DNA from: Methylorubrum populi
Lineage (GTDB): Bacteria > Pseudomonadota > Alphaproteobacteria > Rhizobiales > Beijerinckiaceae
Reading direction: 5' to 3'
Assembly (NCBI RefSeq): GCF_002355515.1
Contig: NZ_AP014809.1
Span: 434,001 to 498,000, forward strand
Length of the DNA stretch: 64,000 bases
Of the stretch, positions 11,699 through 56,653 are shown piece after piece. The position numbers and the translations under genes are program-made. The notes under the pieces were generated by a model. That model was not told the DNA's origin. It saw only the letters and a program-made list of their open reading frames with translations, and searched no databases. Position 1 is the first letter of the stretch. Every line of letters begins with the position of its first letter.

Positions 11699-12055
11699 AT
11701 GTCGATCAACATACCGAGACATCCACGACTCGGCCGGTCGTTGGCGCGAGCCGGACTGGCGCTGTGCCTCCTCTGCGCGGCGACGGCGGCCCGGAGCGCG
11801 GTGCTGCGCCTGAACGGCGCGGGCGGCCTGTCCTGCCGCGTGCTGGCCTCCCCCGCCAAGGCGCGTCTGCCGGAGGGGCGCGCCGCGCTGCAACGGAGCT
11901 TCGGCTACCTCACCGGCCGCGTCCAGTCGGGCGCCGGAGAGCCTCACCAGCGCTTCGCGGGCCCGGACGGCATCGCCGCCGCGATCATCGCCTATTGCCG
12001 GGCGCACCCGAAGCGGCAGGTCGCCGACGCCGCGGCGGATTTCTTCGGGCCTTGA
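11699..12055 (+). CDS. Small secreted protein, possibly HdeA/HdeB-like
   Basis: 118 residues. A signal peptide (RAGLALCLLCAATAARSA) precedes a domain of about 80 residues with two cysteines (GLSCRVLASPA and IIAYCRAHP). The order first Cys, G-Y-x-x-G, then a second Cys before a hydrophobic C-terminal helix recalls periplasmic HdeA/HdeB acid chaperones, but the match is by eye and weak. First gene of locus A on the plus strand. Function otherwise unknown. Confidence 0.55.
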   Translation: MSINIPRHPRLGRSLARAGLALCLLCAATAARSAVLRLNGAGGLSCRVLASPAKARLPEGRAALQRSFGYLTGRVQSGAGEPHQRFAGPDGIAAAIIAYCRAHPKRQVADAAADFFGP

Positions 12056-12136
12056 CGGCCTCTCCTCCGGTTCGACGCGGCATCGTGCGGGCCAGTCGAT
12101 CGCTTGGTATTTCAGGTTCTCACAGGGGGTATCGCG

Positions 12137-12652
12137 ATGTCCATGATCACCCGGTTTTGCCTCGCGAGCGCTGCCGTCGCTGCGGCGCTTCTGCTGGCCT
12201 TCCCGGCCGCGGCCCAGAACAATCGGTGCTCGGTGATGTGCAACGGCATCGACAACCAATGCTACAGGTCCTGCGCCGGATCGAATGACGGCCTCTCGCC
12301 CTTTGGAGCGGCGCCCGGCAGCGGTCCCGGCCGGTCAGGTGGCGGCTATGGCGCCATCGCGATCTCCGACAGCGACAAGGGCTCCCTGCGATGGGGAACA
12401 TCCTATGATTACGAATCTCGCGGGCGCGCGGAAGCCGCGGCGATGCGAAACTGCATCGCCGGAGGGCTTCCGGGCTGCCGGGTGCGGCTCTGGTTCTCCA
12501 ACGCCTGCGCCGCCCTCGTGACCGCCGGCAAAGGCCATTGGTGGGCATCTTGGCGCGGTTCGCTTGCGGCCGCACGCCGTGCGGCACTGGCGGAGTGCGG
12601 GCAGGACGGTGAGAGCCGCTGCAGGGTGAGCGAGGCCTTCTGCTCGTCCTGA
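12137..12652 (+). CDS. Secreted DUF4189-like protein, locus A copy
   Basis: 171 residues from ATG 12137 (SD AGGGGG eight bases upstream). Signal peptide ASAAVAAALLLAFPAAAQ, then a Cys-rich segment (RCSVMCNGIDNQCYRSC), a Gly/Pro linker, and a DUF4189-type domain: YGAIAISDSDKGSLRWGTSYD, an A-E-A-A-A-M-R-N-C helix, then GCRVRLWFSNACAALV. It is predicted periplasmic or cell-surface; no activity is known for the family. A relative with the same layout (signal peptide, Cys-rich stretch, DUF4189) lies in locus B at 46857-47444. Confidence 0.75.
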   Translation: MSMITRFCLASAAVAAALLLAFPAAAQNNRCSVMCNGIDNQCYRSCAGSNDGLSPFGAAPGSGPGRSGGGYGAIAISDSDKGSLRWGTSYDYESRGRAEAAAMRNCIAGGLPGCRVRLWFSNACAALVTAGKGHWWASWRGSLAAARRAALAECGQDGESRCRVSEAFCSS

Positions 12653-12780
12653 GCAAACCTTTCTCTTGATCGGCACAGGGCCGGTAATGCCGAGCAACCG
12701 CCCGCAATTCCCTCGACCTGTTCATCGTGATCGCAATCGGCCCGCGTGCGATCGGCACGCCCGTCCGCCAGGAGCGTTCG

Positions 12781-13209
12781 ATGCGACACTGTTTCGCCTA
12801 TGCCTTCCTCATAGTCTCGACACTCGGCTTTCTGGCCTTGCCTGCCGGCGCCGAGCCCCGCGCGCCGCTAGCCGCCGGCGGCTGCTGGATGGTGCTGCCC
12901 AAGGGCGAGAAGCCCGAACGCGGCAACGCCGCCGAAGTCTTGTGCCTCCGCCGGAACGGCTATGGCCGTGTCCGCGAAAGCTCCTTCTACGGCGATGTCG
13001 CCGGCTGCGGCCGGGTGACCTACCGCACGAGCAACGGCCCGACCCTGGTCGAGATCGACTTCAGCGCCTGCACCAACGGCGCGCCGAACCACAGCCTGCT
13101 TTGCGCGAGCGGCTCCGGGCGCAACCCTGTGCCCTGTCTCCAGAGGGTGCCCGGCGACGACGAGCCGGTGGAGATGGAGCTTTATCCGCTGGAAGGAGCA
13201 GGCTCGTGA
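12781..13209 (+). CDS. Secreted protein of unknown function
   Basis: 142 residues from ATG 12781, with AGGAG eight bases upstream. Signal peptide FAYAFLIVSTLGFLALPAGA, then a compact domain with six cysteines (GGCWMVLPKGEK, EVLCLRRNGYGR, VAGCGRVTY, FSACTNGAP, LLCASG, PCLQR), so probably disulfide-bonded in the periplasm. The C-terminus overlaps the next gene by GTGA, so it is co-translated with the LytM-like protein. No family recognised. Confidence 0.65.
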   Translation: MRHCFAYAFLIVSTLGFLALPAGAEPRAPLAAGGCWMVLPKGEKPERGNAAEVLCLRRNGYGRVRESSFYGDVAGCGRVTYRTSNGPTLVEIDFSACTNGAPNHSLLCASGSGRNPVPCLQRVPGDDEPVEMELYPLEGAGS

Positions 13210-13664
13210 GACTCGCTTCCCGTCTCGCCGCCGTGCTCGGTCCGCTGCTCCTGCAGCCTGTCGCGGGGCACGCTTCCGATTGCCCGGAGGGCGTGGCCCG
13301 ACCGCGTCCGGTGAAGGCCCCGATCGAACACCGGTTCGGGCACCGCCTGCATCCCGTCATCGGCATGGCGGTCTTCCAGCCGAACATGGTCTTCCGCACG
13401 CTCAGCGGCCAGGCCGTCGTGACGGTGCGAGCCGGCCGGGTCGAGCCCGTCGAAGCCACGCGGATCGGCCGCTTCGTGCGGATCCGGCAGCGCGACGGCA
13501 GCGAGCTGCGCTACGGGCCGCTGTCGCAGCTCCGCGTCCGTGCCGGGCGCTGCGTCGCGGCGGGCGCCAGGCTGGGCTGGACGACCTCGTCCCCGTTTAC
13601 GCTCGCCCTGCGCCGAAACGAGGCATGGATCGATCCCGCGCCCCTGTTGGGAGGGGGCCGTTGA
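13206..13664 (+). CDS. Secreted degenerate LytM/M23-like protein without zinc ligands, locus A copy
   Basis: 152 residues from GTG 13206, overlapping the upstream stop. After a signal peptide (LAAVLGPLLLQPVAGHASD) comes an M23-like beta domain: FGHRLHPVIG matches the family's FG-x-R-x-HP-x-x-G, GRFVRIRQRDGSELRYGPLS matches the Y-x-H-L-S strand, and VRAGRCVAAGARLGWT matches the V-x-x-G-x-x-V-x-x-G strand. The zinc-binding positions are changed: the H-x-G-x-D position reads QPNMV, YAHLS reads RYGPLS, and H-L-H near the end reads F-T-L. It is therefore probably a non-catalytic domain like activator LytM factors. A paralogue lies in locus B (49790-50263). Confidence 0.68.
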   Translation: MRLASRLAAVLGPLLLQPVAGHASDCPEGVARPRPVKAPIEHRFGHRLHPVIGMAVFQPNMVFRTLSGQAVVTVRAGRVEPVEATRIGRFVRIRQRDGSELRYGPLSQLRVRAGRCVAAGARLGWTTSSPFTLALRRNEAWIDPAPLLGGGR

Positions 13665-13780
13665 CCAACGTGTCGCTGGAGCGGCTCACCGCAAGAGGGG
13701 GCAATCGACGTCAAGCGGGCGCAATGGTGCGAACGGCTCGGCCGGGGGAAGAAGACAGCGAGTCTTGTTCGAGGCCCGCC

Positions 13781-14272
13781 ATGCCGACACGCCGCTTCCT
13801 GTTGTCCCTGCTGAGCCTGCCGCTGCTGTCCTCGGTTTCCGTGGCGGAGGTGCCATGCAACCCGCACGGCGGGGCGTTGATCGTCCGGCCGCGCCGGCCG
13901 GCGCAGCCGCTCTCGGCGCAGCTCGATGCGCTGGGTCCGCTGGTCCATGACGCCGCGCTTGGCCTCGCTTTGCAGCGGGCCTGGCGCTGCTTCACGCCGG
14001 AGGAGGCCGTGCGAATGCGCTCGACGCTCGCCTGGGCGCGGGACGCACTGTCCCGCCCCGGCTTTAGCGAGGCCAGTCCGGCGCTGCTGAGGGCACCCCG
14101 GCGGCGCGGCAGGCGAGCGGCCGCGCGGCTGGTCGCGATGGGCACCGACAGCGACGAGGCACGCGCCATGCAGGCCTCGTTGCGGTATGTTTTTGCGAGG
14201 GACAAGCTTGGGGGGACGGGCGCCCGTCGGATCTGTGATGGCGATCGCTCGATCAGGGGGATCTCACGATGA
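13781..14272 (+). CDS. Secreted protein of unknown function
   Basis: 163 residues from ATG 13781, which gives a clean signal peptide (MPTRRFLLSLLSLPLLSSVS, with an RR pair); an in-frame ATG at 13723 is a longer alternative. The mature part has two early cysteines (EVPCNPHGG, AWRCFTPEEA) and is mostly helical, Arg/Ala-rich. The stop overlaps the start of the next gene (ATGA). No family recognised. Confidence 0.6.
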   Translation: MPTRRFLLSLLSLPLLSSVSVAEVPCNPHGGALIVRPRRPAQPLSAQLDALGPLVHDAALGLALQRAWRCFTPEEAVRMRSTLAWARDALSRPGFSEASPALLRAPRRRGRRAAARLVAMGTDSDEARAMQASLRYVFARDKLGGTGARRICDGDRSIRGISR

Positions 14273-14901
14273 CAGAGCAGACTGTTGCCGAAGGCGGCGG
14301 GACCTTCAGGGATGCTTTCGGCGGTTCGCTCAAGCGGCCCACCAAGCCTTTGAAAATCGCGATGTTCGTCGCAATCGGCGCCTTCGCCGCCGTCGCGGCG
14401 ATGTATCTCATGTTCGTGTTCGTGCCGCAAAACGGGCTCCCGGCGATCCGCGACTGGTGGGCCGGGCTCGGAACACGATCCCTGCGCGGCGAATCCGCCG
14501 CCTTCTCTTCGATCGTGATGGGCGCGGTCGCGACGATTGTCGTCGCCTCCTTCGCAACCTTCACGCTGACGGAGGCCATTGCGGATCTGCGCAAGGAGAG
14601 GCCGTTGCGGAGCCTCGGCCGGGAGCTCGTCGTCATTCGCGAGCTGACGGAAGAAGGCGTCGGCTATCGGGAGGGCGACATCCGGACGGTGCACGTGCCC
14701 TGGGTGCAGGTGCAGGAGCTGCGCTCGATGGATCTGCCGGCCTTCGAGGGCAGGCTCTTCTTCGTCATCGAGCTGAAGAGCCCGATCCACGAACGCGGCC
14801 GTCTCGTCTTCTGGGACGGGCAGGATCGTCACAACAGCATCGCCGGGCGTCTCCGCGAGCGCCTGGCGGCGTATCGCGCGGCGCAAGCCGCTGCCGGCTG
14901 A
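14269..14901 (+). CDS. Two-span membrane protein with C-terminal soluble domain
   Basis: 210 residues. Two membrane spans (IAMFVAIGAFAAVAAMYLMF, about residues 31-50, and IVMGAVATIVVASFATFTL, about 84-102) are followed by a cytoplasmic beta-rich domain (LVVIRELTEEGVGYREGD, VPWVQVQELRSMD, GRLFFVIELK) that looks like a bacterial PH-type fold. A similar plan (two spans plus PH-like domain) is seen in 18500-19600 and in locus B at 46078-46860. It is 18 bp before the solenoid gene, so probably in one transcript with it. Confidence 0.62.
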   Translation: MTEQTVAEGGGTFRDAFGGSLKRPTKPLKIAMFVAIGAFAAVAAMYLMFVFVPQNGLPAIRDWWAGLGTRSLRGESAAFSSIVMGAVATIVVASFATFTLTEAIADLRKERPLRSLGRELVVIRELTEEGVGYREGDIRTVHVPWVQVQELRSMDLPAFEGRLFFVIELKSPIHERGRLVFWDGQDRHNSIAGRLRERLAAYRAAQAAAG

Positions 14902-14919
14902 AGAGAAGGAGGGGCACCG

Positions 14920-17187
14920 ATGCAAACATTGCGTGATTTTCCTTTCTTCGTCCTGTGCGGTTCGACCCAAGACGATTATGTCCACCTGCCGGCGTTCGGG
15001 CGCTTCGAACGGATCGAGTGGCCGATGTTTTCCCGGGGAGACTTCACCCGGCCGCCTCGCTACATCGGGCTTCTCGACCTCGACGGCCCGCCGCCGCTGG
15101 CTCATCTCGAAGCGGATGTTTGGGCCGTTGTCCGGATCGATCGGGATGATCCTTGCGAACAGGAGACGCGGGAGGATGGGTCGGTCGTACCCGGCGTGGT
15201 GCGCTTCGCCTCCGGCTTCGTGCTGTTTCGCGGCCCGAAACGGATCGCGCTGAGCATCTTCTCCGCCTGCAACGCCGGCATGCCCCTGAAGACGCCGCTA
15301 TCGGCCTTGCAGGATGACTCCGGCGTCGCCTTCGCCGGCGACTACGGCGCGGCGATCGCCGGCGACGAAGGTTTTGCCCGCGCCGGCGCCTACGGCATCG
15401 CCCAGGCCGGGGTGCCGGAGCAATGGGCCAGCCTGGACCTGCATGGGCGGCCCAAATGGGATGGATACAACTCCTTCGGCCTGGCGCTGGCGGGCGTAGA
15501 TGGCTCGGCCTTCTGCGGCACCGAGGGTCTTGCCGTGGCAGAGAGCCGCGGCCGGGTGCGCGCGGCAGGTCTTGGCGTGGCGATCGGCCGAGGCACTCTC
15601 GGCGAACGCTGTGTCGTCGAGACGGGTTATAAAGGCGTCGCCATCTCGCAGGCTGCGAACGGGTACCTGACCGCTGGCAAAGGGTCCGTCGCAGTGGCCA
15701 CCGGCAGCAGCCGCTGGTTCGAGATCGGCCACGGGGGGATCGGCGTCTCACGCAGGCATGTGGAGGTGCTGGACATCGGCGACGAGGCCGTCGTGATCGC
15801 GCCTGAACTCGGGGAAGAGACCCTGCTCCGTCTGGGCCGGGACGCGACACTGATCTGCCGTCAGCAGTCGTTCCCCTTGCGGTCCGGTGTTGTCCGCGTG
15901 TTCACGACCTGCGGCGGCGAGCTTCAGCCTGGCGTCTACGCGCATTCGAAAGGCTGTCTTGAAATGCGTTTCGCCGAAGAGCTCAAGCCTCACTTCGTGC
16001 TCTTCGAGGAATCACTGGAAGAGCCGGAGGAGAGCGCTCCCACGGCCCCGGCTCCCGCCTTCCCATCCGGCGTGCTGTGGTGGGAGGCCGCGCACAGCCA
16101 CGATCCGAAGGCCGATATCGTGGCGGAGCCGATGCTGCGGGAGCAGATCATCGTTCTGTGCTCCAACATCCCGGCAGCCGAGCTCGAGGCGGGGCGACAG
16201 GAGGGTAAGGAGTGGCTCGGCGCCTTGTGGGGTCGCGGCGAGCTGCCCGTAAGCGATGGGGCGCCTTGTTGTCTGGTCCGGGTCGAGGGGGAGCACACGC
16301 CCGCACAGCAGCGCGGCGGGCCGATCGGCTTCCGGAGAGGAGCGGCGCTTTATCGTGGCACCTTGCGGGGAGCGGTCGCCGCCTTGCGCGCCCTCGGCGA
16401 GGACACGGTGCTTGACGGCAGCATCGCTTTGGCGGGGCATGGGGGCGTCGCGCGCGTACCGTCGCGCATGCAGTCCATGCCGCTGCCTCCAGCACATCCC
16501 GAAGACACGCACGAACGCTCCTACTTCACTCCGTACGACGTCCTGCGCGGTGACCGGGCCATCGGGCGCAACCCCACGCTGGCGATCGCAGGCGACGAGG
16601 GTTTTGCGATCTGCGACGGCGAGGCGCATGCGGGCAGGCGCGGCGTCGCCTGCGTCTCTGGCCTCGGCGTCGCCCGGGCGGGATTTCTTGGGATCGCCCT
16701 TTGCGAAAACGGCCGCGCGATCGCCGGCGACTTCGGCATTTCCATGTGCCGCCTGGTCAAAGGCCTCGGTGACGAAAGCTATCCGATCAGAGGGGGACAG
16801 GCTGTCGCGGGCTTATTCGGCATCGCCTTCGCGGATCTGCCCGGTTCCGACGTGATCGCCAGCGACTATGGCATCGCTATACTCCGGGATGCCGGACGGG
16901 CCCGGACGGGGAGCTTCGGTGTGGCGATCGGCATCGGTTCGGACCAGGCCGATGTCCAGGGCGGCGCCGACGCCGTCGTCGTCTCACGCGAGGGGCGTGT
17001 CAGCGGGGGAGAAGGTGCGCTGCTGGTCGTCTGGGATGCCGGCACAAAGCGATGGATCCACGCCATGGTCGGCCGGGACGGCATCGAGCGCGGCGTCGCC
17101 TATGTCGCCCGCAACGGCCGGTTCGAGCCCTGGACCAGCACCATCGTGACGGAGGTCCGCCGCAAGCGCCGACGATGGCTGCACTGA
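14920..17187 (+). CDS. Large octapeptide-repeat solenoid protein, locus A copy
   Basis: 755 residues, ATG 14920 with GAAGGAGGGG just upstream; no signal peptide or membrane span, so cytoplasmic. Residues 1-130 form a globular N-domain (FPFFVLCGSTQDD, DVWAVVRID). Residues about 135-295 and 552-705 are two blocks of an 8-residue repeat, G-[AVIF]-A-x-A-G-x-x, for example GVAFAGDY GAAIAGDE GFARAGAY; the period suggests a beta-solenoid, as in ice-nucleation-type octapeptides. A linker module (410-510: IIVLCSNIP, YRGTLRGAVAAL) separates them, and the C-terminus (GALLVVWDAGTKRW, VGRDGIERGVAYVARNGRF) resembles the tail of solenoid proteins of the DUF7666 kind, from memory. A full-length paralogue is at 50320-52581. 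Function unknown. Confidence 0.72.
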   Translation: MQTLRDFPFFVLCGSTQDDYVHLPAFGRFERIEWPMFSRGDFTRPPRYIGLLDLDGPPPLAHLEADVWAVVRIDRDDPCEQETREDGSVVPGVVRFASGFVLFRGPKRIALSIFSACNAGMPLKTPLSALQDDSGVAFAGDYGAAIAGDEGFARAGAYGIAQAGVPEQWASLDLHGRPKWDGYNSFGLALAGVDGSAFCGTEGLAVAESRGRVRAAGLGVAIGRGTLGERCVVETGYKGVAISQAANGYLTAGKGSVAVATGSSRWFEIGHGGIGVSRRHVEVLDIGDEAVVIAPELGEETLLRLGRDATLICRQQSFPLRSGVVRVFTTCGGELQPGVYAHSKGCLEMRFAEELKPHFVLFEESLEEPEESAPTAPAPAFPSGVLWWEAAHSHDPKADIVAEPMLREQIIVLCSNIPAAELEAGRQEGKEWLGALWGRGELPVSDGAPCCLVRVEGEHTPAQQRGGPIGFRRGAALYRGTLRGAVAALRALGEDTVLDGSIALAGHGGVARVPSRMQSMPLPPAHPEDTHERSYFTPYDVLRGDRAIGRNPTLAIAGDEGFAICDGEAHAGRRGVACVSGLGVARAGFLGIALCENGRAIAGDFGISMCRLVKGLGDESYPIRGGQAVAGLFGIAFADLPGSDVIASDYGIAILRDAGRARTGSFGVAIGIGSDQADVQGGADAVVVSREGRVSGGEGALLVVWDAGTKRWIHAMVGRDGIERGVAYVARNGRFEPWTSTIVTEVRRKRRRWLH

Positions 17188-17296
17188 GCGCCGGCATCCA
17201 TCGGCAAGGCCGGGCAAGTTCGCGCAATATCGCGGCCGGCGGGTCGCGGCTATCCCTTCGTCCATCGGATCACCCCGACGGAACGGAGTCTGAGCC

Positions 17297-17758
17297 ATGA
17301 AGAAACACCTCGCCCTCGCCGCCGTGGTCCTGCTCGCCGCGACAGGCGCGCAGGCTCAGCAGAGCCAGCAGAAGATCGCCGTCAAGAACCGCGACATGAT
17401 CGTCGCCATCACGAGCGAGCAGCTGGAGGACAAGATCGTCGGCAAGCCCGAGATCTTCCAGCGGCGCAACATCGCCTACGCCATCGGCATGACGCGCAGC
17501 CTGCACCGGGCCTGCACCATCCTCTCGGCCGAGGACAGCGCGCGGCTGGAGCGGCTCGAGCGGGCCTACCGGACGAGGAAGGCAAGCAACGAGATCGACG
17601 CGGCGATGCAGGCCATGGTGCTGGGCGAACTCGACAACGGCGCCTCCGACACGGCCGCCCTGCTCGGCCGCTACGACTGCGCTGCGCTGGAGCGCGCCAA
17701 GCTGACCGGCCCGCTGCTCGCCTTCTGGAACAAATATCTCCCCCGGCTCGCCGGCTGA
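17297..17758 (+). CDS. Secreted helical protein of unknown function
   Basis: 153 residues from ATG 17297. Signal peptide HLALAAVVLLAATGAQAQ, then an alpha-helical mature protein with two cysteines (LHRACTILS, GRYDCAALE) that may form a disulfide. No membrane span and no known domain. It lies between the solenoid gene and the 189-residue secreted protein; no locus B equivalent was seen. Confidence 0.65.
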   Translation: MKKHLALAAVVLLAATGAQAQQSQQKIAVKNRDMIVAITSEQLEDKIVGKPEIFQRRNIAYAIGMTRSLHRACTILSAEDSARLERLERAYRTRKASNEIDAAMQAMVLGELDNGASDTAALLGRYDCAALERAKLTGPLLAFWNKYLPRLAG

Positions 17759-17791
17759 GCCGCCGCATGCAGCAAGCACGAGGAGGTCTCG

Positions 17792-18361
17792 ATGTCGCTT
17801 CGCTTTCCTCGATCCTTCGTTGCGGCGCTGATCGCCGCGGCGGGCCTGCTCGCGGCCCACGCGGCCTCGGCGCAGACCGCGCCCGCGCCGCGCCTCGAAG
17901 CCCAGCGTCTGGCCAATGCGCAGTTCGAGACGTTTCGGACCCGCTGCGGCAAGGGCTATGTCGTCGCCGCCGACGTCACGCCGCCGCCGCGGGGCGGCTT
18001 CACCGCCACACTGGGGACGCCTGCGCCCGGAGCCTCCTCCGGCCATACGCTCTATGTCGCCTATGCCGATGTCCGCCTCGACGGGCGCGAGATCACGACC
18101 GATATCGACCGTCGCAATGGGATCGCCTGGCGCGGAACGCTGGCCTACAGCGCCGCCGCTCTGCGCCAGATCTCGGTCGGCCATGACGGGACCAGAGGCG
18201 CCTGGAGCCCGTGGCAGCCCGCCGGACCGATCTATACGGTGACGCTGGAGCTCAAGAACGGGAGCTGGTCGAGCCGCGGGCAAGAGATGTCGCTTCTGGG
18301 TGCGCTGGGGCGCTACGCCAAGCTGAGGCGTCCGGCCTGTGCAGAGATTCCAGCAGGCTGA
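17792..18361 (+). CDS. Secreted protein with locus B paralogue
   Basis: 189 residues from ATG 17792, SD AGGAGG six bases upstream. Signal peptide FVAALIAAAGLLAAHAASAQ. The mature domain has a Cys pair (TFRTRCGKGYVV and RRPACAEIPAG) and conserved stretches GHTLYVAYADVRLDGRE, DRRNGIAWRG, RQISVGHDGTRGAWSPW that recur in the frameshifted gene at 53231-53817, including the final (C)SE-V/I-PAG. No known family. Predicted periplasmic partner of the solenoid system. Confidence 0.7.
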   Translation: MSLRFPRSFVAALIAAAGLLAAHAASAQTAPAPRLEAQRLANAQFETFRTRCGKGYVVAADVTPPPRGGFTATLGTPAPGASSGHTLYVAYADVRLDGREITTDIDRRNGIAWRGTLAYSAAALRQISVGHDGTRGAWSPWQPAGPIYTVTLELKNGSWSSRGQEMSLLGALGRYAKLRRPACAEIPAG

Positions 18362-18499
18362 TCCGGCGATGGCGGCGGCTTTCGCACCGCGAAGATCGGC
18401 CGATCCCGCTTTCCGGCGGAGCCAACCATAAGATAATCTCGAAACCGAGGCGCGCGGCGGTGATGTCTCGCCCGTTGCCCGACGAATGCGGGGGATGAC

Positions 18500-19600
18500 A
18501 TGGACGAACCAAGCGTCGCCTTCAGTGTCGAGGGCAAAACCTTTCGCAGACCGATCGGCGTGTTTTCCATCCTCGGCGTCTGCGCTCTCGCGGGCGCCAT
18601 TCTCTGCCTGTTGCAACTCGTGACCAGGCCTTTGACGCTGTCGAACGCCGTGCCGCTGCTCTTCGGCGGCGTCGGAGGACTGATCGGGCTCGCGGCAGGC
18701 CTCGGTTTTACCGCCATGCATCTCAACGCATGGCGGGCCGGGCGTGATCCGGATGCCACCGCAAGGCGGATCACGCCTCTCGTCGTCACGGCCGGCGGGA
18801 TCTTCATCGACCCCTATCCCTATGCCGGTCCCGGACCTCTGGGAGCGCGCCGCCGCCGCTTCGTGCCCTTGCGGGACGTCGCCGCGATCGGGCCGGTCAA
18901 GGAAACGGGCCTGTTTCCCGTGACGGTGGCGGAGAAGGACGGGGTTCAGAAGACCGTCTACGAAATCCCCGAACAGGCGCGCGGCGAGGCCGGTGCGACG
19001 CCGTACGCCACGCTCCTCGCCGCTCGGCAGCGCTATCTGGCCGGGCTTTCATCCGCGGCCCGGGCCGCGACGGGGACGTTCCTCGTTCCGGTCGTAAGGG
19101 CGGCGCCGCCGATCTGGCGCGTGCTCGGTGGCGGCGTGCTGCTCGCGGGCGCGGCCGTCTTCGCTCTCCTGCTGACCGCGACAGCCGCGGCGACGAAGAG
19201 CGCCAATCTCGACCTCAAGGCCTTTCTCACGCTTCTGGGCTGGAGCGCGATTATCGCGTTCGTCGCCCTTGCGATCGTCGCCGCCGCGATCGGGGCCTGG
19301 CGCGCCCGAGGCCAGCAGATCGCCTGGCCCGTCGCGACGATCGAGGCGGACGGCTTCACCGCCACCGCCCTGCCGAATGCGGCAGGCGACCTCTTCGGCG
19401 ATCTTGAAGGCCGCAGCGGCCGCGTCGCCTGGCCTGAGGTTCGAAGCATAGGGCCGCCGCTCCCCGGCGAAAACGACTTTACCGTCGACATCGGCGAGCG
19501 CCACCCACTGCGTCTGCCGGCCTCGGCCAGAGCTGAAGACGGGCGGACGCTTCATCCGGCGCTCGCCGAGGCATGGCGATCATCGCGCTCGGAAAGCTGA
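18500..19600 (+). CDS. Four-span membrane protein with PH-like segments, unknown
   Basis: 366 residues from ATG 18500. Two N-terminal spans (SILGVCALAGAILCLLQLV; AVPLLFGGVGGLIGLAAGLG), a soluble domain (RRITPLVVTAGGIFIDPYPY, RFVPLRDVAAIGPVKETG), two more spans (VLGGGVLLAGAAVFALLLTA; LLGWSAIIAFVALAIVAAAI), then a C-terminal domain (QQIAWPVATIEADGFTATAL, GDLEGRSGRVAWPEVRSIGP). The two soluble parts resemble each other, suggesting internal duplication. The next gene is a tandem paralogue with the same motifs. Function unknown; predicted inner-membrane part of locus A. Confidence 0.68.
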   Translation: MDEPSVAFSVEGKTFRRPIGVFSILGVCALAGAILCLLQLVTRPLTLSNAVPLLFGGVGGLIGLAAGLGFTAMHLNAWRAGRDPDATARRITPLVVTAGGIFIDPYPYAGPGPLGARRRRFVPLRDVAAIGPVKETGLFPVTVAEKDGVQKTVYEIPEQARGEAGATPYATLLAARQRYLAGLSSAARAATGTFLVPVVRAAPPIWRVLGGGVLLAGAAVFALLLTATAAATKSANLDLKAFLTLLGWSAIIAFVALAIVAAAIGAWRARGQQIAWPVATIEADGFTATALPNAAGDLFGDLEGRSGRVAWPEVRSIGPPLPGENDFTVDIGERHPLRLPASARAEDGRTLHPALAEAWRSSRSES

Positions 19601-19676
19601 GGTCGAGGCGGAACAGCTCTTCGCCGCCTCGGCTCGCGCCGCCGCGCCATCCGGATCGGACACCAGGAACGCCACT

Positions 19677-21629: not shown

Positions 21630-21745
21630 CGCCGCCTCCTTGAGCGGCCATCATGCCGTGCCGGTGCCGGCCCAGGCAATTGATGCCGATTGCATCGCAT
21701 TGCGATCGGCATCCTGCCCTGCGCGATCGATCATGACCCTGTGCG

Positions 21746-22195
21746 CTATGGCCTTCGGATCGGCTCCGGCTGCTGTGAGTGGACGGCGCTCTGTTCTCTG
21801 ATTGCCGTCGGGCCTTGCTCGGACCCGGGATCAATGATCGTGACGCTGACGCAGACCAACAGGAAGACCAGGATGATATTGGCGCCGCCGATCACCGATG
21901 CGAGCCGCCTCGCACCCCGCGCCCGAACGATGCCGATTGCCGCAACACCACAAAGAAGCGCCATAGAAGTGTACTGGCCGGTTATCATCCATCCTCGGAT
22001 TTCCGTGCCGGCCGCATGATGGTCGATCATGAAGGGGCCCGAGAGGATCATAAGACCCCAGGGTATGATCATGAACGACAGTGCGCCCAAACGACGGCGG
22101 ACTTCTGACCCACTCGGAAAGGAGCGGACGACGAGCACAGCAATCACAACGGATACCGATGCGACCAACGCGAGAAGCGGGATCAAATTGAGCAT
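21746..22195 (-). CDS. Membrane protein of unknown function
   Basis: 149 residues from ATG 22195, chosen for the AAGGAGAGAG upstream. Four hydrophobic segments: LIPLLALVASVSVVIAVLVV, ALSFMIIPWGLMILSGPFMI, TSMALLCGVAAIGIVRA and VIGGANIILVFLLVCVSVTI. Small basic loops. No family recognised. Last gene before the recombinase at 22420. Confidence 0.6.
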   Translation of the reverse strand: MLNLIPLLALVASVSVVIAVLVVRSFPSGSEVRRRLGALSFMIIPWGLMILSGPFMIDHHAAGTEIRGWMITGQYTSMALLCGVAAIGIVRARGARRLASVIGGANIILVFLLVCVSVTIIDPGSEQGPTAIREQSAVHSQQPEPIRRP

Positions 22196-48969: not shown

Positions 48970-49096
48970 GGATACCTCCTCAAATGTGAGCGGAATCATT
49001 CGAAGCGCTTTCGGATACTCGGGTATAGTGCACAGACTTGTCGATGATTGACGGCAGCCAAGCGACGATGGCGACCGGCCTCACGGAGATTGGCGG

Positions 49097-49582
49097 CTAA
49101 TGCGCGCGAAGGCGGCCTTCCGTGCGTCCTGTTCCACCGCCGAACCCAGGATCGACGCAGGCGGTCTCGCGGCGATTCGCGTAGATCCGCACGAGGCAGC
49201 CGAAGACCGGTTCGTCGCCGGGATCGGTCCAGGCACTCCAGCGGCCGGAGGTCGAGCGGGTGCGGATGGCGCGCGCGTGAAACCAGAAGAGCTGACGCCA
49301 GCGCAGGCCGGCTCGGCTCTCCGCGCCGGACGGCGGCGCGATCGGCCCCGGCGTGATCGCGACGCCGCGCTCCTCCCGCAGCAGGCGGACGCCGCCGGCG
49401 CCGCGCGAGGCGGCCAGGAACCCGCCTCCGACATGTTGCCGCTGTGCATGGTACCGGGCGATGGCGGTGCTGCGGGCGAGCGCCGGGTCGCTCGGCAGCG
49501 GCAGGCGGCGCGCCTCGGCGGCCGAGGCGAAGCCGATCGCCAACGCGGCGACGAGACATCGGCGGACGGGCTGGCAGGACAT
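49097..49582 (-). CDS. Secreted protein of unknown function
   Basis: 161 residues from ATG 49582 (GAGGG upstream); the longer open frame is a shadow. Signal peptide RRCLVAALAIGFASAAEARR, then a mature domain with LFWFHARAIRTRSTSGRWSA, PGDEPVFGCLVRIYANRRET, two cysteines and a Gly-rich tail. Divergent from the LytM-like gene at 49790. No family recognised and no obvious locus A equivalent. Confidence 0.55.
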   Translation of the reverse strand: MSCQPVRRCLVAALAIGFASAAEARRLPLPSDPALARSTAIARYHAQRQHVGGGFLAASRGAGGVRLLREERGVAITPGPIAPPSGAESRAGLRWRQLFWFHARAIRTRSTSGRWSAWTDPGDEPVFGCLVRIYANRRETACVDPGFGGGTGRTEGRLRAH

Positions 49583-50319: not shown

Positions 50320-52581
50320 ATGTCTGACGATATGGCTACGACAATTCCTTGGAGGATCTGGAACTTCGAGGACCGCCCGCTTCATCTGTTGTGCGGGTCC
50401 CGGCAGGATCTCGGGAAAGGGATCGCGACGCTGCCATCCTTCGGTCGATTCGCGCTCGCCGACGAACACTCGCACTATCGCGGGCTCGTAGGCTTACCGA
50501 AGGGGCTCGGCGATCCGGACCTGGCCGGGCTTCGCTCGGCGGTCTGGGCAATCGTCCGCCTCGACGCCGGAGACGCGGCCGAGGCCCTCTTCGCCGACGA
50601 CGGTTCCTTCGAAGGCCTCCACTTTCGCTCAGGGTTCGTGGTCCATCGCGGCGGCCGCCGGAGTGCCCTCGACCTTCTGACCCGTCTTGGCTGCGATCCG
50701 GCGGGCTGGGCCGGCGGTCTGCTGCGCTTCTCCGGTGCGGACGGCGTGGCGGTGGCGGGCGCGGACGGCTTTGCTGAGGCCGGCGACGAGGCGTTGGCGT
50801 TCGCAGGACCGCGGGGCGAGGCCCGCTGCGGTCGCAGCGGGCTGGCCCGGGCGGGGGCCGGGGGAACGGCAGAAGGCGGCGACAGAGCCCTCGCCGTCGT
50901 CGATCGCTTGGGAAGCGCCCGCTGCGGTACGTGCGGACTTGCGGTAGCCCGGTCGGACGCTGTCGCCGCTGCCGGCGCGGATGGCGTCGCCGTGGCGCTC
51001 GGCCGGGACTGTGTGGTCGAAGCCGGTTGGGGCGGTGCGGCCATCGCCGCGGGTCCGGTCCGGCTGATCCGGGTCGGTAGGAGTGGGATCGGGATCGTGC
51101 GCGCGAGCGCCAAGGCGATCGCCGTCGATGAGGACGGGCTCTGCCTTCACCCCCAGCCTCTGGCGAGGTACACGCTCGTGCGTCTCGGACGGGGCGCCGT
51201 CCTGTTGTACGGCGTGCAGGACGGTGGCCCGCTCCGGCAGCTGGTGGGCGGTTCGGACTGCGCGCCCGATGGCGGAACCTTCGTGTTCCGCGATGGGTCC
51301 TGGTATCCGGCCGCCTGGGAGATCGATATCTACGCCCTCGATCCCGATCGAGGCTGGGCCGTGACGGACGAGGGCGCCGAAGCGTCCCGGCGTCCGGCCG
51401 CGCCCGATTTACGTGCGCCGCCACAGGACCAGCCCTGGTGGCGCGTCGCAGCGTACCACGATCCCGCCAGCAGATGCACCGAGCGTTGGCCCGCACCCGG
51501 CGACACCGTGGTGCTGACCCGCCCGGTGCCGGACGCTGCGCAGGATGAAGAAGGGCGCGTGGCGCGGGACTGGACGGGCTTGCCCTGGGGCCGAGGCGAT
51601 CTCTCCCTTCCCGAGGGGAGCACCTGCATGTTGGTGCGGATCGAAACTCCTTCGGAGGCGGACGAGCGCGGGGCCGTGAGCTGTCGGGGAGGCGACATCC
51701 TCTATCACGGCAACCTGCGCGGCGCCGTCGCCGCTCTGGTGGCGATGGGGGCGGATCCCGAGGGGATGGGGCTCGACATCGCTCTCGCCGGCGAGGGTGG
51801 GGTCGCCCGCGTGAATCCGGGCCGCAATCCCGCGGGCGGCTCTCCGATGGCTTCGCAAGGGGTCATGGAGGAGGACGAGACCGATCCCGACAACTGGGCC
51901 GACGTCCCGATGCTGACGGGGGATCCGGCCCGGCCGATGCGCCCCTCCCTCGCCGTGGCCGGGCCTGCGGGCATCGCGATCTGTGCGGGCGAGGCGCATG
52001 CGGGCGCGGACGGCGTCGCCTGGGCTCTGGATCGGGGAAGCGCGCGGGTCCTCGGATGTGGCATCGCGGTCGGCGCCTTTGGCCAGGCTGTCGCCGGCTC
52101 CGACGGAATAGCCTGGATCCGCGATCCCACGGGCCGCTGGGGTCCGTTAGGTCGACGGTCGCTGGGTGTGCCGCCTCAAGCTGAGGTCGGCTCGCGAGGG
52201 CTCGCGGTCTGTGCGGCGCCTGGCGGTCGGGCCACGGCGGCAGCCGCGGGGATCGCCGTGGTGGCCGAGGGCGGCAGCGCGACCTGCGGCGCGCTCGGTC
52301 TCGCGGTCTGCCTCCGCTCGGGCGGCCTAGCCTCCGCCGGTCGCGATGCGGTGGCGGTCGCAGCACGCGGCAATGTCTGCGGCCTGACGGGCGCTCTGCT
52401 CGTCGCCCGGGACGAGACCGGGCGCTGGGTCCATGGGCGGGTCGGGGAAGACGGAATCGCGGAGAGCGTCCCCTACGTAGCGGCGGGCGGGCGGTTCCTG
52501 CCGCGCGTCGTCGTGCTCCCCCGTGCCGCGCGGCGCGGCGGCTCGGATCGGTCAGGGGCGACGAGGAGGAGACGCTCGTGA
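50320..52581 (+). CDS. Large octapeptide-repeat solenoid protein, locus B copy
   Basis: 753 residues, collinear with the locus A protein at 14920-17187. N-domain (LHLLCGSRQDLGKGIATLPS, LRSAVWAIVRLD), first repeat block (GVAVAGAD GFAEAGDE ALAFAGPR style), linker module (ILYHGNLRGAVAALVAMGAD, LDIALAGEGGVARVNPGRNP), second block (SLAVAGPAGIAICAGEAHAG, GIAVVAEGGSATCGALGLAV) and C-terminal module (GALLVARDETGRWVHGRVGE, YVAAGGRF). Repeats are more degenerate and Cys-richer than in A. The basic C-tail (ATRRRRS) overlaps the next gene by GTGA. Cytoplasmic; function unknown. Confidence 0.72.
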   Translation: MSDDMATTIPWRIWNFEDRPLHLLCGSRQDLGKGIATLPSFGRFALADEHSHYRGLVGLPKGLGDPDLAGLRSAVWAIVRLDAGDAAEALFADDGSFEGLHFRSGFVVHRGGRRSALDLLTRLGCDPAGWAGGLLRFSGADGVAVAGADGFAEAGDEALAFAGPRGEARCGRSGLARAGAGGTAEGGDRALAVVDRLGSARCGTCGLAVARSDAVAAAGADGVAVALGRDCVVEAGWGGAAIAAGPVRLIRVGRSGIGIVRASAKAIAVDEDGLCLHPQPLARYTLVRLGRGAVLLYGVQDGGPLRQLVGGSDCAPDGGTFVFRDGSWYPAAWEIDIYALDPDRGWAVTDEGAEASRRPAAPDLRAPPQDQPWWRVAAYHDPASRCTERWPAPGDTVVLTRPVPDAAQDEEGRVARDWTGLPWGRGDLSLPEGSTCMLVRIETPSEADERGAVSCRGGDILYHGNLRGAVAALVAMGADPEGMGLDIALAGEGGVARVNPGRNPAGGSPMASQGVMEEDETDPDNWADVPMLTGDPARPMRPSLAVAGPAGIAICAGEAHAGADGVAWALDRGSARVLGCGIAVGAFGQAVAGSDGIAWIRDPTGRWGPLGRRSLGVPPQAEVGSRGLAVCAAPGGRATAAAAGIAVVAEGGSATCGALGLAVCLRSGGLASAGRDAVAVAARGNVCGLTGALLVARDETGRWVHGRVGEDGIAESVPYVAAGGRFLPRVVVLPRAARRGGSDRSGATRRRRS

Positions 52582-53234
52582 GGTGGTGGCGCGACGGGAC
52601 GGATCGCCTCGCCTTCCGGCTCTGGCGGCTGCTCCGGCGCCATCCGACCGGCATGCCCGCGCCGCAGCCCTGGTCGGGACCGCCCGATCCGTCACCCGAC
52701 CCCGCGCGCGAGCCCCCGGTCCGGGCCGCCGCGCGCCCGGCGCTTCCCTCCATCGGGGAGATGCTTCTCGCCCTCGCGCCCCGGCTCGACTGGACCGATC
52801 CGGTTCTGCGCCGGGGTTTGGCAGAGCCGGTATGGACGCCGCCGCCGGACTTGCGGGCGCTGATCGAGCGGGCCCGCGACGAGGCGGGGCAGATGCCCCT
52901 CTACGAACTCGGGATGAGCCTGCCCACGCATACGCTGGTGCTCGCCTGCCTCGCCCTCCTGCGCTCGCGAGAGGACGCGGCCATCGATGCGCTGCCGTGC
53001 CCGGAAGCGGGAGGGGCGGTGCGGGACATTCCCGGTTCGGTCCAGACGGCGATGTTCCTGGCCTTCGGTCTGATCTGGCCCCCACGAAGCGCCGATGCCC
53101 CGGTCGAGTTCGTCCGACCGAGCCCTGTCGCAACGCCGGTCAACGCCGCGCAAGTGCCGCCGGTCCTGCGGCCTGAGAGATCTCCGACATCGGATCCCCC
53201 TCGGATCCCGACGATCGTGAGACCCGAGCCATGA
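52578..53234 (+). CDS. Helical protein of unknown function, locus B copy
   Basis: 218 residues from GTG 52578, co-translated with the solenoid gene (GTGA). Shares PTGMPAP, LALAPRLDWTDPVLRRGL, VWTPPPDLRALIERARDE, LPTHTLVLACLALLRS and QTAMFLAFGLIWPP with the 275-residue protein at 20802-21629. The conservation of this partner with both solenoid proteins suggests direct interaction. The stop overlaps the next start (ATGA). Confidence 0.7.
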   Translation: MRWWRDGTDRLAFRLWRLLRRHPTGMPAPQPWSGPPDPSPDPAREPPVRAAARPALPSIGEMLLALAPRLDWTDPVLRRGLAEPVWTPPPDLRALIERARDEAGQMPLYELGMSLPTHTLVLACLALLRSREDAAIDALPCPEAGGAVRDIPGSVQTAMFLAFGLIWPPRSADAPVEFVRPSPVATPVNAAQVPPVLRPERSPTSDPPRIPTIVRPEP

Positions 53235-53817
53235 AGACCGTCATCGCCGCTGCCACCTGCACTACCTTCGCCGTCCTGGCCTTCGGGCCGATGCCGCTGG
53301 TGGCAGGTCTCGCTGCACAGGCGCAGCATTCCGCCTTGGGTGATGCCAGGGGTGAGGCCGCGGATCGGGCCAACGCGCTGTTCGGCACCTATCGCGCCCG
53401 CTGCGGGTCGGTCGCCGTCGTCGCCATCGATGTCGCCGCCGCTCCTGCAGGAGCTTCGCGGGATCGCTGGAGAGCACGCAGGCACCTGTCCGGAACGGCC
53501 ACACCCTCTACGTCGCCCTGGCCGACCTGCGCCTCGACGCCCGGGAAACTACCTCGCCCGCGGACCGCCGCAACGGTATCGACTGGTCGGGCCGCCTGAC
53601 CTTCGGCGCCGGCTCCGTGCGCCAGATCTCGGTGGGTCGCGACGGGACCATGGGTCGCTGGACCCCCTGGCAGGCGGGCGGTCCGGTCTACGCGGTGGAC
53701 CTCGCCCGGCGCGACGGCGGGTGGTCCCACCGGATCGACGAGATGCCGGTTGTGACGGGACTCGGCCGCTACGGTCGCCTGCGCCGTCCGACCTGTTCCG
53801 AAGTGCCCGCAGGCTGA
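53231..53817 (+). pseudogene. Frameshifted paralogue of the locus A secreted protein (17792)
   Basis: From ATG 53231 (ATGA overlap) the frame gives a signal peptide and FGTYRARCGSVAVVAIDVAA, matching 17792-18361, then loses similarity near 53458. Homology resumes one frame over: NGHTLYVALADLRLDARE, DRRNGIDWSGRLTFGAG, RQISVGRDGTMGRWTPW, and CSEVPAG to the stop at 53815-53817. A single-base indel near GCAGGAGCTTCGCGG restores about 195 residues. Real pseudogene or a sequencing error; the paralogue in locus A is intact. Confidence 0.75.
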
Positions 53818-53839
53818 CCGCGGAATGGTCGGGCGGCGA

Positions 53840-56653
53840 TCACGGCGGCAGCTGACTTGCGATCAGCGCCTTCAGCGCGTCCACCCACTCGGTGTCGCCG
53901 GCGGCACCACCGACGAACACCGAGGGCGTCGCGGCGATCGGCAGGGCGCGGAACCCGTCCCGCTGCCGGCCGAGAGCGGCGCGGGCTGCCTCGTCCGCGA
54001 CGCAACGGGCCGGATCGTCGGGCGCTCCGGCAAGGCCGTCGAGCAGACGCGCGAAGGCCCCGAGCCGCTCCTGCGCGGTCGCCAGCCGCGCCCACTCCGC
54101 CTGGGCGTTCATCAGGGCGACGAACAGACGGAAGCGATCCGCCGGAATCGCCGCGCAGGCCGCCACCAGCGCGGCTTCGAGGGCGCCGGCATCGTCGTCG
54201 CGCCAGACCGGACGCACTTCGAAGCGGACCGTCGCCGGATCGGAGAAGGCCATGATCGCCGGCCGGAGCACGTCGTAGGCGAAGCGCTGGCAGGCCGGGC
54301 AATCCGCGGCGAGGAAGGCCGTCACCGTGACGGGCGCATTCGCATCTCCGCTCGCGAAGGCGTGGTTAGCGGCGCGGTCACGCGCGAGGCTCGCCTCCGT
54401 CCAGGCGCGATCGAGTTCCGTCCGCGCCCGCAGCGCGATTTCCGGGGCCGGGAGCCGCTGCTCGATGAAGCGCCAGATCGCGATGGCCTGCGCCGGATCG
54501 CGTTGCGCGAGCGCGCCGTAACGCAGCATGTCCGCACGCAGGGCGAGCGCCCAGGGCGCGTCGCGCAGGTCGTGACGCTCCGCCAGCGCCCGCGCGGCGG
54601 CGGGGTCGGGCGCGACGAGGATGGCACCGTCCGCACCGCGGTAGCCATGCGCCAGGAGCGTGGCGAGCTGCTCGGCGGCCTTGCCGCTGCCGGCCGCCGC
54701 CGCCCGTCGCAGCCAGAGGAGGGCCTGTGCCATGTCCGGCGCGTGCCCGTCGCGGGGATCCAGCGCATCGTCGATGAAGACCTGGATCGCAGCGGGAAAT
54801 CCGGCCTCCGCCGATCGCCGGAGAAGGCTGGCCGTCGGTTCGGAGCGCAGGGCCTTCGCACCGTCGAGGGCGTCGGCCTCCATGCGCAGGCGTGCACGCC
54901 AGTACAGGCCGGGCGGATCGTCCGCCCCGGCCGCGGCCGCCATCAGGTCGCGGCGTTCGGTTTCGGATAGCCGCAGGGCGGGATCGGACGGCGCGAGGTC
55001 GAGCCATTCCGCGGTGGCGGCCGGCAGCCCGGCGGATGCTGCACGGCGCAGCCATGCGTGGTAACGGGGGATCTGGACCTCTCCCCCGGCGAATGCCGAT
55101 CCGCTGCGATAGAGCTGTGCCGCGGCATACGCGGCCTTGCCGCTCGGATCGGAGGCCGCCGCCTCCGAAAGGGCCGTGTCGAGCCCCTCGGCCGGATCGG
55201 CGGCGTCGCCGTGTCCCGTCAACACCGAGAAGCTCTTCGCCGCGCTCTCGCGCAGCAGCTTCGCGAGCAGCACGCCCCGTGCGCCGGCCGCGTCGAGGTC
55301 CCGCGCGAGATCGCGCAGGTTGACGTCGAGTCTCTGGAGACGGTCGCCGAGCATCCAGCCCAGGACTCGCCCACGCGGCAGATCCGTGGCGGCGGCGCGG
55401 CGGCCGAAGGCGGCCGCTTCGGCGAGAAGCCTTGCGCGGTCGTCTCCGGCTTCTGCCTGCCGCGCCTGTCTGTCGGCGGCCATGGCCTTCAGGGCGAGGG
55501 CCTTGGGATCGCCCGCGGCGAAGCCCGCCTCGACGACCTGCCTCCGGTCGCGGTCGGCCATGCCCGTCTCGACGATGGCATCGTTGCTGAGGCTGAGGCA
55601 CCAGTCGCGGCGGGTGAGGCCATACCGATCCAGTTGTCCGTCCCAAGGCGGCGCGCAGGCGAAGTCGTAGGCGCTGCCGTCGAGGAGCCCCGCCCTGAGG
55701 AGGAGCCCGGTGCGGGTCTCGGGATAGGCGGCGAACCAGAAGCCGCCCGCCACGGTGAGGGACAGCGCCGCCGCGCCGGCCGCGATGCGCGCCGCGACCC
55801 GTCTCCGGCTCGGGCGGCGAGGCCGCCGGCTCCAGCTTCGGCGCCGGACCTCGTCCTCGGCCGTCAGGGTCAGCGGCGGCAGCGCGCCCTCGCGGTAGAC
55901 CGCCACGGTCTGCGTGTTCGCGGTCCACAGGCTGACCTTGGCGGCGACGGTATCGACCACGTCCTGGATGCGCGTGCCCGGCACGAGCAAGCCGGGCATC
56001 TCCTCGATCAGCGCGAGGGCGAAGGGACTGTGGTTCCCCCAGCCGTCCTCGGCGCTCGCGGTCGCGGCCGTGGAATAGACCAGTTCCGTCGGGCGCGGCA
56101 GGCGGCTGCGCACCATGCCTTGCGTGGCGGAGGCATCGCCGGACCCGTCCTCCACGAATTCGTTCCGACAGGTATCGAGGACGATCACCGTCGCCTTGCG
56201 CGCGCGGCGCCCGAGTTCCCTGGCGAGGGTATCGAGCGGCATCGCGCGGGTGGCGAGATGGCGGAGGCCGGTGATCTCCGCGGCGATGGGGATGAGGAAG
56301 TTCGCTCCCTCCGCCTGGACCCCATGGCCCGCATAGTAAACGAAGGCGACCGCATCGGATCCGGCCGCGTCGACGGCGTCGGCGTACGCGACGAGGGCCT
56401 CCTGCATGGCGGGCAGGGTCGCGTCCGTCAGGAGGCGGACGGAGAAGCCCAGCCCTTCCAGTCCCCACGCCACGTCCCGCGCATCGCGGACCGGGTTCGC
56501 CAGAGGTCGGTCGCGATACCGGGCGTTGCCGATGACGAGAGCGAGACGCGGCTCATGGCGGGAAGCGGCCTCGACCGGCGCCCGCGCGGTCTTGAGCGGA
56601 CGTGGAGATTCGGCCTCGCTCAGGCTCGACAGATCGAACCGACGATGGGGCAT
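53840..56653 (-). CDS. Caspase-family (C14) protease fused through a TM span to a DsbA-like thioredoxin domain
   Basis: 937 residues from ATG 56653. Residues 35-265 are a caspase-like C14 domain: RLALVIGNARYRDRPLANPV, catalytic His110 (AFVYYAGHGVQ), catalytic Cys162 (VIVLDTCRNEF). A basic stretch (RRRSWSRRPRRPSRRR) and one membrane span (286-310) follow, so the protease is cytoplasmic and the rest periplasmic. Residues 320-755 are helical with Sel1-like repeats (ALLWLRRAAAAGSGKAAEQL). Residues about 765-937 are a DsbA-like thioredoxin fold with redox motif CPAC (785-788) and the cis-Pro region ATPSVFVGG (Pro910). Both catalytic sites appear intact. Convergent with the solenoid operon, 22 bp from it. 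Substrates unknown. Confidence 0.85.
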   Translation of the reverse strand: MPHRRFDLSSLSEAESPRPLKTARAPVEAASRHEPRLALVIGNARYRDRPLANPVRDARDVAWGLEGLGFSVRLLTDATLPAMQEALVAYADAVDAAGSDAVAFVYYAGHGVQAEGANFLIPIAAEITGLRHLATRAMPLDTLARELGRRARKATVIVLDTCRNEFVEDGSGDASATQGMVRSRLPRPTELVYSTAATASAEDGWGNHSPFALALIEEMPGLLVPGTRIQDVVDTVAAKVSLWTANTQTVAVYREGALPPLTLTAEDEVRRRSWSRRPRRPSRRRVAARIAAGAAALSLTVAGGFWFAAYPETRTGLLLRAGLLDGSAYDFACAPPWDGQLDRYGLTRRDWCLSLSNDAIVETGMADRDRRQVVEAGFAAGDPKALALKAMAADRQARQAEAGDDRARLLAEAAAFGRRAAATDLPRGRVLGWMLGDRLQRLDVNLRDLARDLDAAGARGVLLAKLLRESAAKSFSVLTGHGDAADPAEGLDTALSEAAASDPSGKAAYAAAQLYRSGSAFAGGEVQIPRYHAWLRRAASAGLPAATAEWLDLAPSDPALRLSETERRDLMAAAAGADDPPGLYWRARLRMEADALDGAKALRSEPTASLLRRSAEAGFPAAIQVFIDDALDPRDGHAPDMAQALLWLRRAAAAGSGKAAEQLATLLAHGYRGADGAILVAPDPAAARALAERHDLRDAPWALALRADMLRYGALAQRDPAQAIAIWRFIEQRLPAPEIALRARTELDRAWTEASLARDRAANHAFASGDANAPVTVTAFLAADCPACQRFAYDVLRPAIMAFSDPATVRFEVRPVWRDDDAGALEAALVAACAAIPADRFRLFVALMNAQAEWARLATAQERLGAFARLLDGLAGAPDDPARCVADEAARAALGRQRDGFRALPIAATPSVFVGGAAGDTEWVDALKALIASQLPP

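Follow-up and report, generated by a model that had tools for sequence, protein, structure and literature searches.

Gene content of the two loci

We analysed a window of 64,000 nucleotides (bases 434001–498000 of contig 1 of 6 in the 5.94 Mb genome of Methylorubrum populi), which holds two related gene sets, locus A and locus B. A preliminary description had regarded them as one undescribed multigene system, and no description of the gene set was found in the literature searched, the coverage of which was partial. Our results support well the composition of a rare system of at least a dozen genes, centred on a membrane-anchored caspase-like protease, and its mobility. With modest confidence, we favour the reading that A and B were acquired separately and represent a single mobile, trans-envelope caspase system in two versions, with anti-phage or other abortive stress defence as its most likely role.

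Relatives were collected by scanning named genomes for the helical protein family of both loci. Six loci were found in five genomes: Bosea, a Methylobacterium metagenome-assembled genome (MAG), Xanthobacter aminoxidans, Aquabacter and G297, a MAG labelled Mycobacterium. Pseudoxanthobacter (G045) was added from the order-level helical search and holds only a remnant of the helical gene (about 29–30 residues). Together with the window genome, the set counts seven genomes. Since the DNA of G297 is >99.9% identical to the window, the seven represent six independent lineages.

Locus B and its neighbouring cassette contain the following features (TM, transmembrane).

36061–45087: cassette of a Sel1 protein, a hybrid histidine kinase, a response regulator (−), a MotA/ExbB-like protein, a TM coiled-coil protein and a 474-residue protein (Pfam)
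45160–46059 (+): B299, 299 residues, putative caspase partner with a helical N-domain and an Ig-like beta-sandwich (model pLDDT 90.5)
46078–46860 (−): B9, TM protein with a C-terminal domain (TM prediction, profile comparison)
46857–47444 (−): B8, DUF4189 (PF13827, 49.2 bits; cut-off 25)
47434–48999 (−): B7, exported protein with a PDZ-like domain (PDZ_2, E 1.1e-5, slightly below cut-off)
49097–49582 (−): B6, secreted, 161 residues
49790–50263 (+): B5, degenerate LytM-like protein (PF01551, 29.5 bits, cut-off 28.7; BLASTP)
50320–52581 (+): B4, solenoid protein (BLASTP, tree)
52578–53234 (+): B3, helical protein (BLASTP)
53231–53811 (+): B2, secreted, A9 family, frame-broken (BLASTP)
53840–56653 (−): B1, caspase, TM helix, Sel1-like repeats and DsbA-like part (Peptidase_C14, PF00656, 94.2 bits, cut-off 21.4; PF13462, 63.7 bits, cut-off 23.2)

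The caspase of B1 has relatives in PDB that include MALT1. Its catalytic dyad (His110/Cys162) is invariant in all five caspases compared, and so is the CxxC of the DsbA-like part (Cys785/Cys788). The sole predicted TM helix of B1 spans residues 290–308; the Arg-rich stretch directly before it fits an N-in topology of the caspase protein. The start and stop codons of B4, B3 and B2 overlap.

Locus A and its borders were resolved as follows.

9467–10572 (−): IS3-like transposase open reading frames (ORFs), 9467–10219 and 10327–10572 (ORF list, element comparison; IS3 label by eye)
10676–10933 (+): remnant of about 85 codons, C-terminus of a Bosea-type caspase-DsbA gene (DNA alignment, translation match)
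10947–11393 (−): small membrane protein, kept in the Bosea (91%) and MAG (88%) loci
11699–12055 (+): A1, secreted, 2 conserved Cys (relatives compared)
12137–12652 (+): A2, secreted DUF4189 (PF13827, 73.6 bits; 10/10 post-signal Cys in 5/5 relatives)
12781–13209 (+): A3, secreted, 6 conserved Cys (relatives compared)
13206–13664 (+): A4, secreted, degenerate LytM/M23-like (PF01551, 34.2 bits; ligand motifs replaced)
13781–14272 (+): A5, secreted (gene maps)
14269–14901 (+): A6, two-TM protein with a C-terminal cytosolic domain (TM prediction; unproven kin of the 46078 protein)
14920–17187 (+): A7, 755 residues with octapeptide solenoid repeats, alone among the element's proteins in its high variability
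17297–17758 (+): A8, secreted, 2 conserved Cys (relatives compared)
17792–18361 (+): A9, secreted, 189 residues, 2 conserved Cys (BLASTP, relatives compared)
18500–19600 (+): A10, four-TM protein (TM prediction)
19677–20805 (+): A11, frame-broken A10 paralogue, shortened also in Bosea and the MAG (BLASTP, gene maps)
20802–21629 (−): A12, helical protein, hallmark of the system (BLASTP, genome scans)
21746–22342 (−): three-TM protein accompanying the element (gene maps, TM prediction)
22420–23046 (−): tyrosine recombinase, 208 residues, at the right end of the element (97.5% to the Bosea copy)
23091–23117 (+): right end of the element, terminating in GCGCCAC (identical in Bosea and the MAG, divergence beyond)

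Window 10676–23117 aligned blockwise to the DNA of Bosea and the Methylobacterium MAG. The alignment starts at 10675/10676, and the translation of 10676–10933 matched the last ~85 residues of their caspase proteins. The IS3-like ORFs occupy the place expected for B299 and most of the caspase gene. Judging from this comparison, locus A is truncated and has lost B299 and most of its caspase. The two diverged copies of the preliminary description stand as two versions, of which locus A is not a full copy.

To compare the loci, all-against-all BLASTP was carried out with 30 sequences from the window, four of which are fragments of two broken genes; this gave 435 pairs, and each sequence was shuffled 300 times. 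Five protein families recurred in both loci, as described before, and each of the five A/B pairs (44–328 bits) beat every composition-matched shuffle: the solenoid proteins A7/B4 (328 bits, 35% over 773 columns; best shuffle 36.6), the helical proteins A12/B3 (165 bits, 63% over 131; 32.7), the secreted A9 and the C-terminal piece of B2 (141 bits, 54% over 119; 23.9), the LytM-like A4/B5 (76.3 bits, 39% over 145; 24.6) and the DUF4189 proteins A2/B8 (44.3 bits, 27% over 182; 28.5). The N-terminal piece of B2 also matched A9 (38.1 bits; best shuffle 25.8). Pairs expected within a locus were recovered as well, namely A10 with the A11 pieces, and the kinase with its regulator, 10.5 bits above the shuffles. 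Another five pairs (A12-B7, A11b-A6, A9-B6, A2-A7 and A9-B5) were 0.8–3.5 bits above all shuffles and were taken as noise among the 435. The different gene order of A and B, also part of the preliminary description, was confirmed.

A sixth common family had been suggested for the two membrane/PH-like proteins at 14269 (A6) and 46078 (B9), and is unproven. No BLASTP match was found between them; profile comparison (hhalign) gave 16% probability with a pairwise E of 0.0016, collinear over the C-terminal domain. Nothing was found for A10 against B9, A6 against A10 or the LytM-like proteins against B9.

The LytM-like pair passed the Peptidase_M23 (PF01551) cut-off narrowly. The zinc-ligand motifs of M23 are HxxxD and HxH; none of the five aligned sequences has the full set, and B5 retains one His at the first site. 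The eight-residue period of the solenoid proteins is real: their self-identity at lag 8 reached 89 and 112, and 500 shuffles gave at most 83 and 97 across lags 2–20. The solenoid protein has two repeat blocks and matched phrog_18079 (function unknown) weakly at E ~1e-6. No Pfam match was obtained for the solenoid proteins at E 0.1; DUF7666-type octapeptide proteins of phages and bacteria are possible relatives. In six of the secreted proteins compared, 24 of 24 post-signal cysteines are kept in five of five relatives, versus 0.75–0.87 identity elsewhere.

Relatives, mobile element and origin of the loci

Co-occurrence was assessed in 297 evenly drawn genomes of the order (269 for A9 and DUF4189). 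Helical matches were found in two, the window genome itself and the Pseudoxanthobacter with its 30-residue remnant, and solenoid matches in the same two. A9 was found in these two of the 269 genomes, plus one marginal match (E 9e-4). None of the five same-genus genomes in the sample of 297 had a helical or solenoid match. The co-occurrence of system-specific families supports one undescribed multigene system in two diverged versions. DUF4189 was detected in 68 of the 269 genomes and M23 is a general, widespread family, so these two carry little weight. Protein searches gave 15 helical proteins from 5.8 billion, and, with the ~8,000 best-sharing candidates scored, at least 12 solenoid proteins, both counts including the window's own copies. 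The B299 search, scored likewise, gave at least 62 protein clusters; among 385 genomes of the class, B299 occurred in one, the window's own.

All seven genomes with a helical match had the solenoid, a full-length caspase-DsbA and exactly one B299. The distance between solenoid and caspase genes was 1.3–4.0 kb in six and 13.5 kb in Bosea. It is well supported that the constant core includes caspase-DsbA and B299; the five families counted previously do recur, but these two had been left out of the count. In the gene maps of Bosea and the MAG, the order is B299, caspase-DsbA, the small membrane protein and A1–A12, with A12 on the opposite strand. Aquabacter has a broadly similar content, differently arranged and with A6, A10 and A11 missing; Xanthobacter is like Aquabacter in this, but for a partial A6 match; in the Pseudoxanthobacter gene map, the small membrane protein and A11 were not found. 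Gene content is thus largely constant although order is shuffled between loci.

One Xanthobacter aminoxidans locus (L040) contains two solenoids, and A8 and A9 are each present a second time as fragments, which indicates that paralogues arise within a single locus too.

The Bosea and MAG loci form elements (~24.9 kb and ~15.4 kb) with exact common ends, left GCGCCACAACCCGACATTGG and right ...GCTGCGCTGCGCCAC, in unrelated flanks. The right end ...GCTGCGCTGCGCCAC is also present at window 23117. The Bosea element is longer mainly because a Sel1-kinase-regulator-MotA-MotB-474 cassette is inserted between A2 and A3; this is the cassette of window 36061–45087 (68–91% identical). The recombinase at the right end passed PF00589 (69.8 bits, cut-off 27.1), its MAG match being in two pieces. 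These results support well that locus A belongs to a mobile element that has exact ends and carries a tyrosine recombinase; the literature searched gave no description of the element.

Shared mobility raises the alternative that the genes hitch-hike on one element without working together, as the Bosea and MAG genes lie within one exact-ended unit. Against this, much of the gene set recurs in different arrangements in Aquabacter, Xanthobacter and locus B, where the search for Bosea-type ends found none, and start and stop codons overlap at B4-B3-B2. We consider hitch-hiking unlikely.

On the Bosea contig, the left-end sequence GCGCCACnnnnnGACATTGGGnnnTTGCC occurs at L035:13614, L037:5479 and L037:18478, which correspond to the caspase element and both DISARM-like flanks. 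When one mismatch was allowed and the elements' own left ends were set aside, its only occurrences in the 666 kb scanned were those on either side of the DISARM-like region of Bosea. The MAG right end matches it at 5 mismatches. This suggests a stacking of cassettes in Bosea at attachment sites of a single type. Recombinase relatives occurred in 31 of 150 order genomes, some beside Gabija and other defence genes. At E 1e-40, among 51 long proteins near ten recombinase copies, a small sample, single proteins matched GajA, GajB, mad3, a methyltransferase, RtcR and, perhaps through a cross-match, AriA. For the 72 controls, the only matches were of the SspA/DndA type, and we take these to be ordinary cysteine desulfurases.

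Other small recombinases and integrase-like genes were also seen. The small recombinase family comprises the intact 22420–23046 (−), a fragment at 27813–28223 (−) beside the Argonaute genes, and G000:C1:321500-322096 with one stop. At 7203–9035, tRNA-Ser is followed by a 556-residue ORF, integrase-like by eye and without a Pfam match. No copy of the tRNA-Ser end was found within the window; the region may mark where a larger island has its left border. Beside locus B, 57175–60077 (−) encodes a weakly integrase-like protein (E 0.0085, under cut-off), an unknown protein and a KfrA_N protein, possibly another integrative element.

The solenoid diverges alone. When the window is compared with the Bosea and MAG elements, it is 56–60% identical, versus 79–99% for ten other A proteins (A5 lowest), and 58% between Bosea and the MAG, versus 86–99% for the other orthologues compared. 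Its first half (residues 1–385) is the most divergent (52–57% versus 65–66% for the rest), and part of this half is a gap in the DNA alignments, with adjoining blocks matching at 88–94%. Such divergence in near-identical elements is as expected of a recognition module in an arms race.

The preliminary description had left paralogy or two acquisitions as the origin of the loci. Duplication of one locus from the other within this genome would agree with their lying about 13–25 kb apart in one region. Locus A proteins, however, are 83–99% identical to the MAG copies, except the solenoid (56%), and B4, B3 and B2 fall outside all A-type relatives compared: B4 forms a long branch that separates from all A-type solenoids, its exact place in the tree being unsure, and B3 and B2 are 62–65% and 53–58% identical to every A-type relative. 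A12 and A9, for comparison, are 63–99% identical to these relatives. The locus B caspase is 54% identical to the Xanthobacter type and 43–44% to the Bosea type. Since locus A lies on a mobile element and locus B represents an outgroup lineage, separate acquisition fits better than duplication in place, which we regard as very improbable. Of the two origins offered, two acquisitions is the preferred one.

Defence neighbourhood and possible function

Twenty flanking genes, picked by eye without a like-for-like control, were scanned with PADLOC at E 0.001, and 13 matched. Between loci A and B, 28359–32391 (−) encodes a short Argonaute (pAgo class I, E 1.3e-136) and a SIR2-type partner split into two ORFs. 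The Bosea flank has a DISARM-like set (DrmA, 3.5e-92; DrmB, weak, 1.9e-13; methyltransferase) and IetAS; the Pseudoxanthobacter flank, Druantia A, D and E; the Aquabacter flank, the PADLOC candidate PDC-S05. Known or candidate defence genes thus lie near four of the five loci with readable flanks. As background, pAgo_I was found in 8 of 150 order genomes (window included), and DruE above 500 bits in one, Pseudoxanthobacter itself. DruE at E 0.001 was rejected as background (81/150, helicase cross-matches), and strong scores were used instead. The low background makes chance proximity within tens of kb unlikely.

From these data we infer an anti-phage function and a trans-envelope mechanism. 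An envelope sensor would be made up of the secreted proteins, with their disulphide bonds, together with the Sel1/DsbA half of the caspase protein, which would lie in the periplasm. A phage or other insult that breaches or remodels the envelope would send a signal across the single TM helix and free the cytosolic caspase, whose cleavage activity would lead to cell death or arrest. B299 and the helical protein may be cytosolic adaptor, substrate or effector, the variable solenoid a recognition module adapting to changing invaders, and the Sel1/two-component/MotA cassette an optional addition. The B caspase might serve both gene sets in this genome, or locus A could be decaying.

A more specific form of this proposal is only tentative, and we think it somewhat unlikely to hold in every part. 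It would be a trans-envelope immune complex of a new type, in which disulphide-bonded periplasmic proteins, read by the DsbA/Sel1 ectodomain, gate the cytosolic caspase via one membrane helix, with a fast-diversifying octapeptide solenoid for recognition and the helical protein and B299 as partners. It would spread as a cassette carried by the recombinase and stack beside systems of the DISARM type at an attachment sequence common to both.

The predominance of secreted and membrane proteins would also suit an envelope-stress or surface-remodelling module, in which the caspase processes an envelope regulator under redox or peptidoglycan stress, a niche trait on mobile islands. The kinase, response regulator and MotA-like cassette accompanies the system twice, and DUF4189 is common outside it. 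This does not sit easily with the very patchy distribution (2/297, none in the five same-genus genomes), the defence neighbours at four of five readable loci and a solenoid that diverges fast within otherwise conserved elements; we find it possible, though rather unlikely. A contact-dependent or secretion-like envelope apparatus, with the solenoid as exported variable passenger and the caspase as maturation protease, could draw on the fast-diverging two-block solenoid, the exported proteins and the MotA/ExbB energiser nearby. No signal peptide was seen on A7 or B4, however, and no export machinery was recognised among the genes scanned, which makes this improbable.

Several points weigh against the defence reading. 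The flanking genes were hand-picked as stated, and 7 of the 20 had no PADLOC match; the only such neighbour in the MAG flank is of the methyltransferase type (1.3e-24), and the contig of Xanthobacter stops too near the locus for its flank to be read. Clustering of mobile islands in general explains part of the defence proximity. When ten proteins were scanned against PADLOC-DB 2.0.0, no complete defence system was recognised in the core; the only matches were a weak generic caspase (2.7e-9), weak ZorA matches to the MotA-like protein and coiled-coil matches. The number of genes is high for a defence system, and the set is very rare. The Bosea-type ends were not found at the Pseudoxanthobacter locus as well as at the three reordered loci, solenoid divergence could reflect relaxed constraint, and A5 is an exception among the secreted proteins (post-signal Cys kept 8/13). 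No confident fold relative of B299 or the helical protein was found, the AGS-C Ig-like sensor domain of the Pycsar cyclase being a tentative candidate for the C-terminal domain of B299. Simple hydropathy flagged A7 576–594 and A12 203–221, which we discounted.

If the defence reading is true, it would describe a bacterial caspase pathway that senses extracytosolic events via a disulphide-linked periplasmic apparatus, by which bacteria could plausibly notice phage while it is still at the envelope and respond through death driven by a protease. About ten protein families that have no function would also be given one. The exact element ends make the whole gene set easy to transfer into a test host.

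Comparison with known systems

Bacterial caspase conflict systems (EACC1-associated; vWA-MoxR/VMAP, iSTAND; PMC7159879) share with the present loci a caspase-like effector in an accessory multigene cluster, and in iSTAND systems Sel1 repeats are preceded by a TM segment (PMC7159879). As a difference, no vWA, MoxR or STAND component was seen among the window genes scanned, and neither the DsbA fusion nor the secreted disulphide-rich set is described in the parts of PMC7159879 consulted. The window caspase scored 46.8 bits with the EACC1-associated caspase model (NF047832), below its cut-off of 140.

Zorya is resembled in the cassette, where a MotA/ExbB-type protein adjoins a MotB-like partner with one TM helix and a coiled coil. 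The likeness ends there: ZorA2 gave 16.4 bits against a cut-off of 700, Pfam found no OmpA-like domain in the partner, and no other Zorya proteins were among the ten proteins scanned.

LytM factors such as EnvC and NlpD have an M23 fold without zinc ligands. A4 and B5 are alike in this, but they are small, secreted, consist of the LytM domain alone and lie in a caspase locus. Defence cargo on short elements with a tyrosine recombinase is a general notion, and locus A resembles such elements in its discrete ends and small recombinase, with Gabija and other defence genes near the recombinase relatives.

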